In this document: positions 28,741 to 48,441 of the stretch, piece by piece
Position numbering within the stretch: the stretch's first letter is position 1
How the letters are laid out: each line of letters begins with the position of its first letter
Source of the DNA: Umbilicaria muhlenbergii
Taxonomy: Eukaryota; Ascomycota; Lecanoromycetes; Umbilicariales; Umbilicariaceae
Assembly (NCBI GenBank): GCA_000611775.1
Contig: KK106982.1
Span: 868,001 to 932,000 of the forward strand
DNA: 64,000 bases
Direction of reading: 5' to 3'
Translations under genes and position numbers: made by a program
Notes under the pieces: generated by a model
Told to the model about the DNA's origin: nothing
What the model saw: the letters and a program-made list of their open reading frames with translations, nothing else
Database searches by the model: none

Positions 28741-30761
28741 TTAGAGATCAGCGCCCTTTCGCTCCTCAACCATCAACCATTGACCCTCGTAGATGCAAAG
28801 GCCCTTATCTCTAGAATTCAACGATTTACTTGACGTGACTGAATGAATCTTGAAATCCCTGAACAGCTATTCGTAACCCATGCCGTCAGCATAGTACCAC
28901 ACCACATCCTTTCCCAGTCGGGACTAACCTGCAAACACATCTTCTGCGATTCCAGCCGCGCAATATTCTTTCCAATGCACTCCCTCGATCCATACCCCCA
29001 AGTAAAGATATACTTCTCCATTAGCTTCGCTTTCTCCCCGTCTTCCAGCCATCGCTCCGGTCGGAAGACACCGGCATCTTCGCCGAAGATCTCGCAATCC
29101 CTGTTGATGATGTACGGATTGGCGCCAATTTCCGTGCCCGCGGGTATCCAGGTGCCATTGAGGTTGAGGCCGCCCTTGGATACATAGCGGGGGAGGACCA
29201 CGGGAGTTGAAGGACAGAGACGGAGGGTCTCGCGTACGCAGGCCATGAAGTAGGGTAGGGTATTGGTTTCTTCGAATGTGACAATGGGAGAAGTAAGGTT
29301 TCCTTGGGCGGAGAAATCGTCGATTTCGGATACGAGCTTGGTGTGGATGGACGGATTTTGTAGAACATTGTTGACAAAGGGGCAGATGAAGGCAGCCGTG
29401 GTGTCAGATGCAGCAATCATAAACATCAGGCATTCTACCTCGATGTCTTTGATTGGCATAGTACTGCCGTCGAGTAACTTGGTGCGTAGAAAACTAGATG
29501 CATAGGAATCCTGAGTAAGCGTCGAGAGGTACATTTCACATATAATCGTGACTGACCTGTCTAGAAGATCTGTGTTTTGTCCAGTTCGTGGGTCAGCCAG
29601 ACGGTTACGCAGCAGTCGGTCTCGATGCTAGAAGTTCAATTAGTAAAGCTTCACCAAAATTTTGCCGCGAACCTAGAACATGACAGAAGACTTTGCACTC
29701 ACAGACATTATTTTCCCACTTCCGCTCTTATCACCGCTATGCGGCAAAAGGTAGCTCTTGAGAAATGGATGTTTGATCACAGGGTTCATGAGCCAAGGGA
29801 GTGCAGCGACAAGACCTGCAAACAGAGACATGCTATGAAGTTCCCCGATAAGCCCCTCAACATCACAGCCCTGGCTCACAAATCCGATTGGCGAGCCAAA
29901 AGTCAGGTGCGTGACAGTGTCATACAAAAACCAACTGTGCGAGTACATCAGCATGCATCATATGTCGGAAACCAGTGCAAAAGCCACCAACCGGACCCAA
30001 TCCGCAAAGTCGATAGCCTTCCCAGTACAAGCAAATCTGTGTTTGATGATGTCGAATAGCTCAACAACACGCTCATTCACTTTGCCTTCCAACTTCCGCA
30101 GATTCTTCATAGAGACCTATTGCGAGATCAATGAAACCAATGTTCAACTCATCAACTCTTTGCACTCCGAAGCGCGAGAACTTACAGAAGGGGCCACCAT
30201 CCTTCGTTTGGCAGCGTGTTCATCGTGCTTCAAGGTCTGAAACATAGGAGCAACCTCGCCCATAACTCCATGGCTGTAGAAGTCCGTTTTATCCGCGTGC
30301 CTATGGTAGACGTCCGGTAGGAGCTTAGGATCGCTAAAAGATAGCAGATTGGGGGCAATGCGAACGATAGGCCCTATATTTCCCAAAAATATCAGCTATA
30401 ATCGGCTCAAGCCTAGGGACTATATATCTCAGACTTGACACCTACCATACTCTCGGTGCTGGGCCAACCCTAACGACGGAATATGTTGAGTGGCCATTAC
30501 ATAGAGCTTATAATGATCTGTAATGCTTGCCCAGAAGGGGCCGGGAAAGTCACGCAAAGGATGAAAATGCCGATTGTAGACACCTCTTGAAATTATGGCA
30601 AGACTACCTAACAAGATCAGACTGACAAAGTTGAGACTGATGTTAAAGAGGTTCCACAGCTTGCACAGACTGTGTGTAAGGCTGGTCAAAGAGATCGGTG
30701 TAGCAGAAAACAACATATTGTGTTGCTGTAAGAGCAACGATGAGGTCTGAAGGTATGACAA
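28741..30761 (-). CDS. Cytochrome P450 monooxygenase, pisatin-demethylase-like
   Basis: Predicted 540-aa microsomal haem monooxygenase. Seven exons, 30761-30446, 30373-30186, 30116-29992, 29934-29703, 29627-29557, 29493-28929 and 28866-28741, give 541 codons. An N-terminal anchor (FVSLILLGSLAII) precedes the hinge RDFPGPFWAS. Further motifs are the I-helix MIAASDTTA, the ExxR motif ETLR, the PERW-type FRPERWLE, and the haem loop FTWGYGSRECIGKNIA with the Cys ligand. The last intron (28867-28928) restores LFRDFKIHSV, the usual P450 C-terminal strand. HADKTDFYSHG and LKHDEHAAKRRMVAPS recall the pisatin demethylase group. Substrate is unknown. An alternative start at residue 16 (MLFSATP) is possible. 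All core motifs are intact, although both neighbours are broken. Confidence 0.92.
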
Positions 30762-31648
30762 GACAGTATAGTTGATAGCATTTGTACTACACGGGACTTT
30801 GCATCTTTCTGAAGGTGACAGATACCATTCACCATTCTAGATCTTATCAAAAGGAGAAGCGTGCTGGACTCTGCCGTAAAAAGATCTAACATTATCTTAT
30901 TGCATAAGATAAGTGAACTCTTCAGGAACCCTAGGAGAAACCTCGCTCATCATGTGAGGCTCATTGCCTATCACTGCGAGTATTATCATGTCGAGCAGGG
31001 CAATGTAGTCGCTCACATCCACTGGCAAGCCTCATGGCTCACCTTTGCCACATATCGGCGGTCTCATCCTCGATTTACAAGACATGGAAATACATTGGAT
31101 ATTCTGAAAGGGTATATGATATCGCGTCGAAAGTGAGATTTGATGACGTAGGCAGTAGTGCTGTGCACGATAGATGAGGACCTCAAGCCGACAACTGCAT
31201 CTCGGCTTTCTGTGTGCCCACATATCACGGCCCACCAGGGCCACCTTGAAGACAACTATCTTTGTCCCCGTCTTTGATTGATGGACTGTGCCATTTAAGT
31301 ACTGTACCTTGTGAATGCAGAAAATATCCTCCAGGCCAGGAAATGCATCTTTCATCGCTTGCCTTGTCGCTTGTAGCCTGTAGCTGTCGGGTATTGAACT
31401 CACCTACAGCACCTTACATAGCATACCTGGCTGGCACTATCTATCTATGTATTTGTGGGGCACTCCGCAGAAGTCACATCCGTCCTGCACATCTTGCCTT
31501 GATTGTACAACTCAGTCACTGTCTGAAAATGTTGCTTCCCCCCCCCCTCAAATCTGTTCTCTGCCGACCTCTCATCTCTGAACTGCACGTTTCCTAAGCA
31601 ACTATTAGCTCATCGAACTTCGCCCAATTCTATCTTATTTCTGTACCT
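30762..31648. other. Intergenic region, P450 / hydrolase relic
   Basis: About 0.9 kb between divergent units. It contains a C-run near 31540. No gene recognised. It would hold the P450 promoter. Confidence 0.4.
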
Positions 31649-32848
31649 ATGTCTTCAACCGCTACCAAACAGGATCCAGAAACCAAGCAAACAGTCAAAG
31701 CTCTTCGTACGTCTGGCGACCCGCCCGAACAACTTACGGTCTCTGCCCGACAAAACAAGAGCCTGCAAGGCCGCTCCAGCAACACATCCATATGGCTCAG
31801 CCAAGTCTCTCTCCCAGTGCCTGAAGACGAATGTTCGCGATGCATTGCTTAAGGCCATCAGCAGCCTCAGTGAGGGGTCAAAGACGTTTGAGACGCCAGA
31901 TCTTGTCCCAGTGCGGGCGGAATGGACAGGGTATTGCAAAAGTGTAAACAACAGCACAACAGAGATAAAAACCTTTGAGACTGAGAAATTTGATGGCATG
32001 ATGGATGACCTTTCAAGCGGGGTCACAATGCTTCTTCTTCATGGTGGAGCATACTTGTATGTCCTCAATCGACACCTGCTCTTTATCTGCGCTGCTATGA
32101 ACATCGTCTGATATTTCTTATCAGCCGGGGCACGCCATCCTCCAGCCGGCCACTGGTGATGGAACTGGCAAGACTGACGGGGGGTCGATGTTTGTCTGTT
32201 CGCTATCGCCTTGCCCCGCAGAACCCTTTCCCAGCTGTCCTCTTGGATGCCCTTGTTGCTTACCTGTCGTTGCTCCATCAGCCCGCTGGCTCCTACCATA
32301 AGCCCGTGCCGTCGACTTCCATCGTTATTACTGGAGACAGTGCGGGCGGCGGCTTGGCCTTTGCTCTCATCCAGGTCCTTCTTCAATTCAAGCAGCAGAA
32401 CATCAAATTCCGTTACCACAACCAGGTTGTGTCTCTTCCCACTCCCGCTGGACTCGCTACTCTCTGTGCCTACGGCGACTTGACTCACAACCTTCCTTCA
32501 TGGACTGCAAACGCAAAATATGACTATCTCCCACCTATATCCCCTTTGCTAGGCTCTGATCTTCCTAGCTGTGACCTCTGGCCCGCAAAACCACCGCGGA
32601 TTAACCCCTATTGCGAAGACTCGGCCCTGCGCCAATAGGAAAGATATGCGGCATAGCTTCGAACTGGTTCCAAACAGCTGTCACCCTCTGTTCCGCTGCC
32701 CGCTGCGCGATCACTTTTCCCCCGTCCGCGGACATTTCCTCACCGTAGCATAGCCACATCGGTGGCGCGCCGACCCAGCTTTTTGCAGCGGTGGGGCTCA
32801 CCAGCGGACTATGGGCAGGTACAGGCGAGGATGAAAGAAGGGCAGGCG
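31649..32848 (+). pseudogene. Alpha/beta hydrolase (fold-3, HSL-like) pseudogene with internal inversion
   Basis: Relic of a secondary-metabolite-type esterase. The start MSSTATKQDPETKQ leads to IWLSQVSLPVPED. A one-base shift near 31829 then changes frame, and reading continues as NVRDALLKAISSLSEG. The oxyanion-hole motif LLLHGGAY is followed by a 68-nt intron (32057-32124) and FRGTPSSSRPLVMELARLTG, RYRLAPQNPFP, and the nucleophile elbow GDSAGGG. The frame ends at DSALRQ (stop 32636-32638). The expected next piece, including HSPLVSPTAAKSW, MWLCYGEEMSADGG and the catalytic His region AMPHIFP, is found on the opposite strand at about 32808-32639. The gene therefore carries a frameshift and an inversion of its last part. 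An LTR-like element begins immediately after it. Confidence 0.85.
32639..32808 (-). other. Inverted 3' segment of the hydrolase gene
   Basis: About 170 bp that encode, on the minus strand, the C-terminal block of the same hydrolase (PLVSPTAAKSW, APPMWLCYGEE, VWNQFEAMPHIFP). The ends carry a short imperfect inverted repeat: CCTGCGCCAATAG at 32626-32638 and, reversed, CCTGCCCATAG at 32819-32809. The exact breakpoints lie within these arms. Confidence 0.8.
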
Positions 32849-32958
32849 TGTTGAATTTATCCAACGGATTGACTAGAGTTCGATTGCTACGAAAAGTGGT
32901 GCGAATATATAGAGGGGGGATGCCAAGCCACTAAACAGGCGACAGTGAAAACTCAACA
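32849..32958. repeat. Left LTR-like direct repeat (110 bp)
   Basis: Begins TGTTGA, ends TCAACA and contains a TATA-like GAATATATAG. It differs from the right copy at about five positions plus a G-run length change. Confidence 0.9.
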
Positions 32959-33027
32959 CTCCCCCTCACTGCAACTGCTCCCCCACGACCCTAAAATCAC
33001 AACCTCATTTTCTCACCCAAATCCCTA

Positions 33028-33570
<543 letters not shown>

Positions 33571-33624
33571 TCAGCATGGACGGAGTCAATCCGCAGCGCC
33601 TTTGCGCTGACCGGGCTCATAACC

Positions 33625-33735
33625 TGTTGAATTTATTCAACGGATTGACTGGAGATCGATTGCTACGAAAAGTGGTGCGAATATATAGAGGGGGGGATGC
33701 CAAGCCACTAAGCAGGTGACAGTGAAAACTCAACA
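33625..33735. repeat. Right LTR-like direct repeat (111 bp)
   Basis: Second copy of the terminal repeat, TGTTGA...TCAACA, followed by AGGCG. Confidence 0.9.
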
Positions 33736-33740
33736 AGGCG

Positions 33741-34182
33741 AAGCTAGAAGATCTCCTTAATGCGCGTCAGCGACACAATTCGAGACTATAGCATAAAACA
33801 TCTCTTCTCAGTAGCTCCTTCCAATGCTCCTCGCCATCTTTCAAGCCCTCTAACCCCTGGTCTTAGACAAATGTCGTTAAAAAAGACTTCCATTTATCCT
33901 AGACATGCTTCTCTTAACACCACTGTAATAAGTCCTGTGGGTTGGAAAAGTCTTCTTAGATTGAACCGGCGAATCCGTCCTGCATTCCAGTTTCCGTACT
34001 ATAATTGCACGATACCAATTGCAATGACGGTGACGACTACAGTTGCAGTTACACCACAAGGTAGGTAGGTAGTATTGCTACCTCACCTGAATATCGAACG
34101 CTCTTCCTGTCCGGCTGGCGCACAGTGGTATCATATCGCAACAACAAGAAGCAAAGCTTGCTACACGAGCCAACCAGAACGG
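33741..34182. other. Short intergenic region
   Basis: About 440 bp between the LTR-like element and the stop codon of the isomerase gene. The first bases should be the former downstream flank of the hydrolase. No gene seen. Confidence 0.4.
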
Positions 34183-35086
34183 TCACATCCTCCTGATCTG
34201 CGTCTCTCCCATGTACTTCTCCAAGCCCGAATCTAGATGCTTCCACCATTCGAAGAGCATGGTCTCGCATATGAGTTTGAACCACGGCGTGAACTTGAGG
34301 CTCTCATCCCGGAACATGGTCCTCAACTCCTCCTCAGACACATATCGGACGTCTTGGACTTCATTGGCGTTTACGTCGAGGTCGACGTCCGCCTTGATGA
34401 ATAAGATGTAGTCGACTGAAATTACCTTTGTCAGTCTTGCCCTATGATACCCACAAGCGCAGAATCCAGACTCACTTTCATGCTCCCCCCATTTCCCATC
34501 ACTTGGCGCTTTGTAGTGTATCCGAGTCAGGAAGTTGAACTTGTCCAACGGTACTTGTTTCGCCTTGATGCCCAGCTCATGGTCCAGTTTCCGCTGCGCA
34601 GCCCTCCGCACCCCCTGCACCGCCGTCTCCAATTCTGCACCCGTCTCGCCCGGCACTCCCAGTGGATGCGAACAGCAAGTGTTTGTCCACATGCCCGGGA
34701 ACGTGATCTTCTCGGATGCTCGTTGCTGTAATAGGAGGCGGTTCTTCGAGTCGAAAAGGAAAACCGAGAATGCGCGATGGAGGAGACCGTCATTGATGTT
34801 CTTCATGAGATGGCCTGCAACGGGTGTCAGTTATGAATGCAAGTGGGAGTCTATAGATGGAGTCCGTACAAACTTTCTTGCTCGCGCTACCTATGGGCAT
34901 GTCATCATTGTCGAGCACGATGCAGACTTCTTCCATCAGACGAATTTGCTCCTCGTCATATCCTTCCAGATCACCGTCGCGCGCAGATGTTTGATGAGAG
35001 CTCGCGAGACTATTATCGACCTCTGGGAAAAGGCGAACAACATTGTCCGCGGTTATGGTTTGCGTCTGCGTTGTGGTTGTGCTCAT
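34183..35086 (-). CDS. idi1: Isopentenyl-diphosphate delta-isomerase (type I)
   Basis: Interconverts IPP and DMAPP at the base of isoprenoid and sterol synthesis. Exons 35086-34870, 34814-34476 and 34415-34183 give 262 aa. The first junction restores ASKKVCHLMKNI, with 5' splice site GTACGG and a 55-nt intron. The Nudix-like core has LLHRAFSVFLFDSKNRLLLQ, then WTNTCCSHPLG, where the first Cys of the motif region is catalytic in this family. The second junction restores WGEHEIDYILF, which carries the catalytic Glu. The N-terminal 40 residues are a variable Thr/Gln-rich leader. No peroxisomal or mitochondrial signal is obvious. The gene is intact and lies just outside the decaying stretch. Confidence 0.95.
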
Positions 35087-36157
35087 TGTGGCGGGATTCT
35101 TCCGTACAAGAGCCTGGTGAAGAAATGATCCAAGGGGGCAATCGGTAGCACGAGATGGAATGTACCAGGTCTATGGCAGTATAATGTACTAAAAGAGCGT
35201 TCTTCGAGTTAGGAGGTAGAACACTCGGAGATCAGAAAAGAGGCAGTATGGAAAATGAAGGCAAGCTCACGTCCGGTTGGAGAAGCCGAGGTCACGTGAA
35301 CTGTCGCTTTCCGCACAGAGTGGGGAAGAGCCTTTCGCCTCCCATCACAAGACGCTACGCAACCGTGGTAAGGAGACGGCCATGTTGGAGGCTCAAAGCA
35401 CCAGAGAAAGGACGCCGGATAACAAAGCTGGAAGTCAAGACACCATTGACTTCAACGATGTTTTTGGGGTCCGTAGCAATGATTCCGAGGCTGAAAATGC
35501 CAATTACTGACCCAACAACAATTCAGATGAAGTGGGAGTACCCCGCGAATAATACATGAGGGAGATTGCATTGATTGAACGAGATTCAAGAAGAGCTGTC
35601 TACAAAACAGGATGTTAATAAGAGCTGTTTCCCCATCAGAACCGACTGAGAGAGAGTGAAATTCACGAGGGAGATGCTGAACCGGGACTGACAAGAACCC
35701 CGCATCTGTGGGGGCTGATGTCAAGTGGTTACCCTTGATGAGTATGCGGCCTCATGATTGGTTATGAGTGAGGCGGAATTTGAGCTTGGTATCTATTTAT
35801 CTATAGAGAGAATTTCCAGAAGACGTACGAGAATTATACACTAGATCCGCACCTAAGAGTGTGTCTAGAGCATGGAGATAACTGATTTCAAACGAGGCCA
35901 GCGACCCAGGACATAGCTCAGCCAATAGCATTCAACTTGGTCTACACGATATATGCCTACCCAAAAGCGCATCTGATATCCTTCGGAGACTCCTGAAGGC
36001 GCTGGACGTGGCTTGTGGGTGTTCGAGGACCGAAAACCATGCTTCTTTCGTATGAGGCTATGAGCCAAACAATTTGGTTTAGTTATTTCGAAAGTAATAG
36101 TAATACTTTCCCTCAATCCATATGCTACTCCGTATATCCGCGATATATGGTAACGGC
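35087..36157. other. Intergenic 1.07 kb
   Basis: Upstream of the isomerase and downstream of the DUF202 gene. A minus-strand stretch around 35560-35390 reads hydrophobic (VVGSVIGIFSLGIIATDP), but it is interrupted and has no supporting start or family, so no gene is called. Confidence 0.4.
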
Positions 36158-36786
36158 TTAGCGGCGTCTCGAATTTGCTTCCTCAGATAAGAAGAGTATG
36201 CAAGCTGCGATTATCGCGGTAGCTACCAAGACGAAGACCTGCAGACGATGTGTTAATGGGAGTATCTACGCTGGTCACGTTATACGACCACAATGACCTG
36301 AGATAGAGGAGCGCACCACTTTCGTTTTCCAACCACTCTGTACTAATGCTTGTTTTCTCGAATACTTCTTGACTGTCCGGATATAATTCGCAAAGCCGTT
36401 GCATAAACTCGCCAATGCAGCGAGCCAAAATATCACACCTAGTGGTGTTGCCGTCCGCTTTTCAAGAGCAGTTGGCTGTGATTTCAAATGGAATGTAACC
36501 AATATGGCAACACTGACAATGGACATGTAAATGCTGAGCTTGAGCCATGAAAGAAAGGTCCGCTCGTTGGCACAGTGGTCTCTTGCATCACTGCCGTTGT
36601 TTTCGAAGAGCAGTAGCCCAAAGAAAGGCTGCGCAAGGAAGATATGACCGGATCCGTGTCTAGTGGAGACGGAGTCAGCAAGGGGAAATTGTAATCACGA
36701 GAGATGGGAGCGCACTCGTCTACATTGACAGGCGTCGGACCCAAAGGTCTTCTGAAGTAAGAAAAGCAGCCATCTGTATCCTCCAT
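36158..36786 (-). CDS. DUF202-family membrane protein
   Basis: Small 164-aa protein with about three membrane spans, related to bacterial YidH and fungal vacuolar or plasma membrane DUF202 proteins. Exons 36786-36716, 36659-36317 and 36238-36158 sum to 165 codons. The family signature DARDHCANERTFLSWLKLSI precedes the first span (SIVSVAILVTF); then come GVIFWLAALASLCNGFANYI and, after the last intron, VFVLVATAIIAACILFL. The Arg-Asp...ANERT-type motif is the hallmark of DUF202. Molecular function is unknown. The last span lies on a separate 81-nt exon. Confidence 0.85.
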
Positions 36787-37390
36787 TTGTCTCAATCTCC
36801 AAAATCAGGTCCTATCGGCAACGAAGGGTCTTCAACTCAGCGCTCGAGAGGCTCCACGGTCACGTTTCCGGAGTGTATGGAAGTGGGCAACTGACGTTCT
36901 CGATGGGACTTGGGGGGAGCGGCAGCGGCAGGGGCAGCGGCAATAGCATGAGGCGGCAATAGAGAGAACGTCAACCGTCTTTCGTGCTGGCCACGTCTCA
37001 TTGCTGGTCGAGGCCGGATTTGCTGAGACTCGGCCTGGTAACGAGGTAGTCATGCGCCTAATGGAGACTCTGGACATACAGCCATGGAGGCCGAAGCCCG
37101 GACTGGCCACCGGTCATGCATGTGCGGACTTGCTTGATGCGGCATGGCGTAGTTATTCCATTCCTTATCGATTAAGGCACTGTAAGGCCACGAGCCAGCA
37201 GCAAAACACCAGCATGTCACAAGCTCAATCAAGCTCAAGCTCCAACGGCAAGTGGGGTCGGCGCGAAATCAACCATGATTGGCGCCCACGATGACTCCGA
37301 TTGTTAGTGGCAAGCAACCTTCCAAACGGAGAGCTTTGCAGTTCAATCACCCCTCGCCTTTCAACCGCACAGGACGGCACGAGCGTCCAT
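36787..37390. promoter_or_regulatory. Divergent promoter region, DUF202 / MATE
   Basis: About 600 bp between head-to-head genes, expected to contain both promoters and leaders. No specific motif assigned. Confidence 0.4.
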
Positions 37391-47561: not shown

Positions 47562-48441
47562 TCACACCTCCCCCCTCTTCAACGGCACATCCACCCCCCT
47601 CTCCCCCTCCCCCTCCCCTTCCATCCCTACCTCCACCTCCCTCGGCGGACCATAATCCACCCACATCGGCCTCCACTTCTCTCTCCCCTCCAATAGCGCC
47701 CTCGCCTGCTCCCTCACAGTCTTCCCATCCACCCTCGGCCTGTTGCTCGCATCCGGGCCCAGACGCTCGCGCTCAGCGTCGTTGGCTTCGTTCGCTTTGT
47801 CGTAGACGGCTTTGTCCCATCTGTTGTGCCGGGAAAAGAGAAGGGTGGGTTAGTGTTGGTGAGGTCGGTAGGGTTGGTTGGGAGTAGGGGAACGGGATGG
47901 ATGATGGGGAGATGAAGGGACGGGGAGAGGTGGAAGGGAGGAGGGGGAGGTGGAAGGCTGGGGAAAGAGGAAAAGAGGCATGAAGGAAGACTCACGCATC
48001 AAACTCCTCCGGCGGCTCCGGCCAAACAAACGCCTTCTCCATCTCCACCGTCATTTTCTTGATCGCCCGCGGCCTGAACCACCGCCGTTGCGCAGGCACC
48101 ATCTTCCCCGGCCGGTCCTGCTGCACTCTCTGTTGCTGGATGTAGGAGCGCACGGCGAGGACGGGCAGGTTGTATGCGTGGTAGAGGTAGTCTTTTAGGT
48201 CCAGTTTGTTCAAGTGCAGCGGCACGAGGAAGGAGGCCATTGTGGGAGGCAGGTTGGGCGTCCGTAGGAGGGTGAGTCTGAAGTTGGGCCTGTGAGGGGG
48301 AAGTTTAGCTGGGGGAGTGGACGTGGGGAGGTGGTGCATGGGCGGGTAGAAGGGGGGGGAGGGGGAGGGGTACAGGAATACTTGTTTTTGGCCCTTGGGT
48401 GGGTGGAATGATTTTACGCGCAGAGGCCGTAAGGTCGCCAT
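47562..48441 (-). CDS. mrp20: Mitochondrial large-subunit ribosomal protein uL23m
   Basis: Predicted 206-aa mitoribosomal protein near the exit tunnel. Exons 48441-48374, 48289-47996 and 47820-47562 give 207 codons. Junctions restore KGQKQVFLPNFRLTLLRT and PPEEFDAWDKAVYDKA. The core NLPPTMASFLVPLHLNKLDL, DYLYHAYNLPVLAVRSYIQQ and RWFRPRAIKKMTVEM is characteristic of fungal uL23m. The C-terminal extension (KWRPMWVDYGPPREVEV, then Glu/Gly-rich) is typical of filamentous species. The second intron, 175 nt, is long for this window and very purine-rich on the plus strand. Confidence 0.9.

Follow-up and report, generated by a model that had tools for sequence, protein, structure and literature searches.

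A small inverted coding segment with apparent adjacent sequence loss in a predicted alpha/beta hydrolase pseudogene of Umbilicaria muhlenbergii

The hydrolase remnant and its reversed segment

The window, by which we mean the whole 64,000-nucleotide stretch of DNA that was analysed, corresponds to positions 868001-932000 of contig C2 in a genome of 34.8 Mb and 7 contigs. By their appearance, we take its pieces of genes and its introns to be of the filamentous ascomycete type. Because of its several lesions, the locus that extends from 31640 to about 33791 is read here as a pseudogene of a fungal alpha/beta hydrolase (Abhydrolase_3), with family homology provided by PF07859, which is matched both by the plus-strand part of the remnant and by a part that lies inverted within it. 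The lesions that would break the product are a frame change near 31830, the inversion with its in-frame stop at 32636, the loss of about 53-60 codons and the presence of an LTR element. The parts of the gene, together with the short repeats at the ends of the inverted part, are the following, with the evidence for each in brackets.

31640..32056, plus strand: exon 1 remnant (tblastn with exon 1 of the related gene L003)
32057..32124, plus strand: presumed GT-AG intron, 68 bp (sequence; gap between the exon matches)
32125..32632, plus strand: exon 2, part A, the catalytic core with GDSAGG, ending in ...CEDSALR (L003 and PF07859 matches)
32626..32638, plus strand: left arm of the inverted repeat, CCTGCGCCAATAG, at junction 1 (arm alignment)
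32634..32813, minus strand: inverted coding segment B', HSPLVSP...MPHIFPI, about 180 bp (tblastn, genome search, PF07859)
32809..32819, minus strand: right arm of the inverted repeat, CCTGCCCATAG, at junction 2 (arm alignment, anchored comparison)
32819..32848, plus strand: start of the putative C-terminal tail, part D, VQARMKEGQA (modest statistical support)
33741..33791, plus strand: remainder of the putative tail, KLEDLLNARQRHNSRL, and stop (tail alignment across the element)

The locus was compared with L003, a related gene found at G000:C1:5118575 (about 5118 kb) within an open frame of 314 codons. L003 is a paralogue in the same genome and not the ancestral sequence, and its identity to the window copy is 50-57% over the parts of exon 2. 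The two copies have in common the family (the Abhydrolase_3 esterases of PF07859) and apparently also the position of the intron, whereas they differ in integrity: the window copy has several breaks, but in L003 the homologues of the plus-strand part and of the minus-strand part follow each other in order within a single open reading frame. A comparison with solved structures matched L003 to esterases and lipases of the Abhydrolase_3 type, often as two blocks, as expected. Concerning further members of the family, at a threshold of E 1e-3 nothing matched L042 and a single match was obtained for L043 (E 1.5e-6), and neither was used; a search for relatives in viral contigs confirmed none.

Exon 1 of L003 was matched by tblastn at 31640-31831 in one frame and at 31830-32054 in another, and the frame change near 31830 falls where these two matches abut, leaving no space for an intron. 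No true gene start was identified for the exon 1 remnant. Downstream of it, splicing would take place at 32057..32124, and this presumed intron lies at about the same site as the break between the two reading frames of L003. Over the region 31400-34200, an Rfam search with E values up to 1 found no structured RNA. We also considered RIP as the source of the decay and rejected it, given that the dinucleotide ratios of the gene parts are near those of the window (TA/AT 0.62-0.67 vs 0.67; (CA+TG)/(AC+GT) 1.41-1.45 vs 1.27) and a strong signature is absent. Beside the hydrolase remnant, the minus strand of 28818-30761 holds reading frames that we take to be P450-like.

On the plus strand, the reading that continues after ...CEDSALR (32632) hits a stop at 32636-32638. 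Read on the minus strand from 32813 to 32634, the same DNA gives HSPLVSPTAAKSW...EAMPHIFPI, about 60 residues free of stops. Judged by homology, this minus-strand segment is the next expected stretch of the same hydrolase gene, reversed, as argued by the order of the two parts within the single frame of L003 and by their order on the Pfam profile. When the minus-strand peptide was searched against the whole genome, only the segment itself and L003 were returned (57% identity, E 1.4e-16), while the plus-strand peptide recovered L003 at 54% (E 8e-41) and four weaker matches. In the converse comparison, carried out over the 8 kb of 29001-37000, L003 exon 2 matched the plus strand over its residues 3-181 (90/179 identical, E 2e-49) and the minus strand with E 1e-18; the latter alignment is printed as residues 163-241, of which the part before residue 183 (HPLVSP) was not counted, being weak and lying partly in the LTR element that begins at 32849. 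On the profile of PF07859, which has 210 positions, the plus-strand part covers positions 23-121 (E 4.7e-17) and the minus-strand part positions 151-208 (E 2.8e-4, at 21.2 bits below the curated cut-off of 25 bits). Taken together, the genome search, the tblastn comparison with L003 and the PF07859 match rule out chance homology on the minus strand. The claim of the original prediction that a small segment lies inverted inside a hydrolase gene is thus borne out by the L003 comparison and by the order of the PF07859 matches, and so is the claim that the segment sits in its correct relative position, as the plus-strand match stops at L003 residue 181 and clear minus-strand homology starts at residue 183, with almost no gap or overlap. 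Not part of that prediction were the frame change near 31830, the presumed intron at 32057-32124, the LTR element and its target-site duplication within the putative tail, and the loss beside the inversion.

Missing codons, the putative tail and a TRIM-like element

In L003, the homologue of the segment is followed by about 53-60 further residues, and then by a tail of 26 residues in a shifted frame. The C-terminal frame of L003 changes at a G run located before the tail (2400-2409 of that locus), and this change may be due to an indel in the consensus, to a genuine lesion or to splicing that escaped recognition. With L003 as the reference, about 53-60 codons (about 160-180 bp) that are due after the segment are absent at the hydrolase locus. 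A whole-genome search with 53 L003 residues, at E values up to 10, returned L003 itself only, in a search that scored a single first-look candidate and that a diverged copy could escape. With the same residues, tblastn gave 22 chance-level matches within 29001-37000 (best E 0.096) and 35 matches in the window (best E 0.006), none of them convincing. The best of the window matches, at 48310, was set aside as lying well away from the gene in a stretch rich in Gly and Arg, and a resemblance of 15 residues at 33845-33801 on the minus strand (47%; E 0.49 in the 8 kb and 4.0 in the window), which lies just beyond the putative tail, was taken as chance. The loss is judged by the failure to find a diverged stretch of 53 residues, with a related gene of 50-57% identity as the yardstick, and no match appears to be a convincing counterpart.

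Beyond the segment, the plus-strand frame that starts at 32819 is probably the C-terminal tail of the gene. When this frame is read across the inserted element, it runs for 26 residues to a stop and aligns without gaps to the 26-residue tail of L003, with 6 identities. The gapless score was equalled by 168 of 20000 shuffles and by 2 of the 1525 stop-anchored 26-mers of the window, and the local score by 136 of 5000 shuffles. L041, a second gene of the family, was of no help with the tail. Of the two flanks of the inversion, the left one is clear from the L003 match, and the right one depends on the modest match of the tail.

The element that interrupts the putative tail has the following parts.

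32844..32848, plus strand: left copy of the target-site duplication, 5 bp (exact duplication)
32849..33735, plus strand: TRIM-like LTR retroelement, 887 bp, inside the putative tail (two LTRs, TG...CA, target-site duplication AGGCG)
32849..32958, plus strand: left LTR, 110 bp (LTR comparison)
33086..33460, plus strand: internal minisatellite with a 27/54-bp unit, 13.9 copies of 27 bp (repeat analysis)
33625..33735, plus strand: right LTR, 111 bp (LTR comparison)
33736..33740, plus strand: right copy of the target-site duplication, 5 bp (exact duplication)

Short direct LTRs, TG...CA ends, a target-site duplication and many copies would assign this element to the TRIM type, which it resembles also in the very short length of its LTRs, in the 5 bp of its duplication, in its small overall size and in the occurrence of lone LTRs beside the many copies; it is unlike TRIM in its 27/54-bp minisatellite of variable copy number. 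Matches to the LTR in the genome number at least 40 among those listed (40 of 61 candidates were scored), and 30 of them were re-examined as loci, with target-site duplications read by eye. Among these listed loci, an exact 5-bp duplication flanks 7 of the 10 distinct pairs of direct LTRs and 8 of the 12 matches that are lone LTRs, and in two further places the LTRs stand in opposite orientation. The start of the internal region, CTCCCCCT..., is common to 7 of 9 LTR pairs, the ends being alike too, and the minisatellite ranges from 0 to 14 exact cores in the 9 pairs. One of the copies, at G000:C1:7833150-7833596 (1166-1611 of locus L009), has opposite LTRs within an intact 5-bp target-site duplication and lacks part of the internal region. 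Such an arrangement resembles, by analogy, the inversion and adjacent loss of the hydrolase locus, but the way in which the element integrated may have produced it instead. Nested, palindromic-looking pieces of the same miniature LTR element family were also seen near G000:C1 position 2945000 (600-1700 of locus L033).

How the segment may have been reversed

Short inverted repeats had been predicted at both ends of the segment, and repeats are indeed present there, although weak and imperfect. Their arms match in runs of 5, 2 and 4 bases separated by gaps, for an alignment score of 14 that 1271 of 20000 control pairs taken from the window at the same spacing also attain (about 6%), as do 1621 of 21160 pairs sampled within the gene. 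A rarer resemblance is obtained when the comparison is anchored at the junctions: that of A's end to the bases past B' was equalled in 200 of 20000 controls, or in 24 of 2000 when small shifts were tolerated. As support for homology-driven recombination this is thin; the arms are compatible with a microhomology of few bases, or with a short copy of the end of A that was carried along in the event.

The arrangement at the locus can be written as A, then B reversed, then D, with C lost, and one template switch would account for all of it. In this reading, to which we give about an even chance, the segment would have been inverted and the neighbouring stretch lost in a single local template switch during replication or repair. 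Close to where A ends, the polymerase would have come off its template and read a nearby complementary strand in reverse across segment B, returning to the first template past the lost stretch through a microhomology of few bases (CAGG/GCAGG). A slight overrun of this reverse copying beyond the start of B would add a short inverted copy of the end of A, and would thereby explain the weak inverted repeat at both ends. We infer that a single event took place, that it was a template switch and that microhomology was involved; the segment itself stands locally as its own reverse complement, as a template switch would leave it.

Events of this type have been described elsewhere. In the passages of PMC7954356 that deal with it, the '1-3-2-4' template switch substitutes a shorter reverse complement for a larger region, and loses so much that the descendant cannot yield the ancestor. 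The likeness of our locus to the four-point model of short-range template switching, as set out there, is that a longer stretch appears to have given way to the shorter reverse complement of a part of it, with too much gone for the ancestor to be rebuilt; the setting is different, however, since those passages concern great ape alignments in which larger deletions were effectively disallowed, and here about 180 bp are involved, in a fungus and with no ancestral alignment. Closer in terms of organism, the relevant part of PMC8604942 reports template-switch inversions in protein-coding sequence of Saccharomyces cerevisiae. Those are likewise inversions in fungal coding sequence, ascribed in that part of the paper to template switching between inverted repeats, but the spacers given there are of 2-5 bp and the arms longer than 9 bp, whereas the hydrolase locus shows about 170 bp, weak and imperfect arms and a broken gene. 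The proposal of a template switch is weakened by this comparison, in that our inverted segment is far longer than the yeast spacer inversions (2-5 bp) listed in that part of the source.

The main rival to the template switch is end joining after breaks. According to it, two double-strand breaks, or one with resection, would have freed the segment, which was then rejoined in reversed orientation while the adjacent stretch was lost. The end product, an inverted segment with adjacent loss, would be identical, and short microhomology at the ends fits equally well. We nonetheless consider it rather unlikely, as an excised fragment of about 180 bp would have to be retained and flipped, and end joining offers no specific cause for the inverted resemblance of the end of A beyond B', though this may itself be chance, at about the 1% level.

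It is also conceivable, yet improbable, that two copies of the gene once converged here, the minus-strand piece being what remains of the second, otherwise mostly lost copy. The genome does hold at least one related gene, so that duplicates exist, and the printed minus-strand alignment reaches back to L003 residue 163. That earlier part, however, is the weak one that enters the LTR element; the plus-strand match ends at 181 where the clear minus-strand match begins at 183, no other part of the gene is present twice, and the tail-like plus-strand frame at 32819 also suits a single gene.

Still less probable, in our judgement, is the model with which the original prediction accounted for the inversion, in which recombination between the repeats flipped the segment and might flip it back. 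A reversible inversion mediated by inverted repeats would be expected to have repeats beyond chance and no loss of sequence. What the locus offers in its favour is an imperfect repeat at both ends and a junction-anchored resemblance that is uncommon (200/20000), but arms with 5 contiguous matching bases followed by gaps, equalled in score by so many of the window and within-gene pairs, are close to chance expectation, and the coding sequence adjoining the segment is missing. Reversibility fares no better, as turning the segment around again would not restore a whole gene, since the adjacent codons are missing by comparison with L003, and two orientations were not seen: a DNA search of the genome recovered the locus once, and a second orientation is not in the assembly.

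An assembly error at both junctions we regard as the least credible reading of all: small flips can arise beside repeats, and at a distance of some 270 bp there is a minisatellite of about 14 units, but the segment is single-copy by search in an assembly of 7 contigs and 34.8 Mb, the repeat finder lists no repeat of at least 9 ungapped bases at the segment ends, and a mis-join would also have needed to drop the next stretch.

Age, possible trigger and meaning

The event had been thought recent on account of the well-preserved coding of the segment, a view that we do not find supported: 60 codons free of stops say little about age, and the LTRs of the element located about 35 bp from the segment have diverged. 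The insertion of that element is probably not brand new, because its two LTRs differ by 5 substitutions and one indel. Identities with L003 by codon position were 0.64/0.68/0.46 for the inverted segment and 0.58/0.75/0.29 for the plus-strand block, and an attempt to date the inversion from these values was rejected, as L003 is too diverged.

A more speculative possibility, which we think has a small chance of being right, is that the neighbouring LTR element, through its minisatellite or its LTRs, stalled replication and so provoked the inversion and loss, and that template switching next to such elements leaves scars of this sort repeatedly in the genome; the copy at G000:C1:7833150-7833596 likewise has one end reversed and an adjoining stretch absent inside its intact duplication. 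If this were true, the link with the miniature LTR family would provide a named cause of such scars in fungi.

Whatever set it off, inversion with adjacent loss is an event of a described kind, and a fairly ordinary form of gene decay. We infer that an inversion of about 180 bp would look like a missing or divergent stretch in an ordinary alignment of one strand. The hydrolase locus can be regarded as a legible fossil of one such inversion, of about 180 bp and accompanied by loss, and it is by looking for adjacent loss that a switch able to flip back is told from a copying scar that goes one way only.
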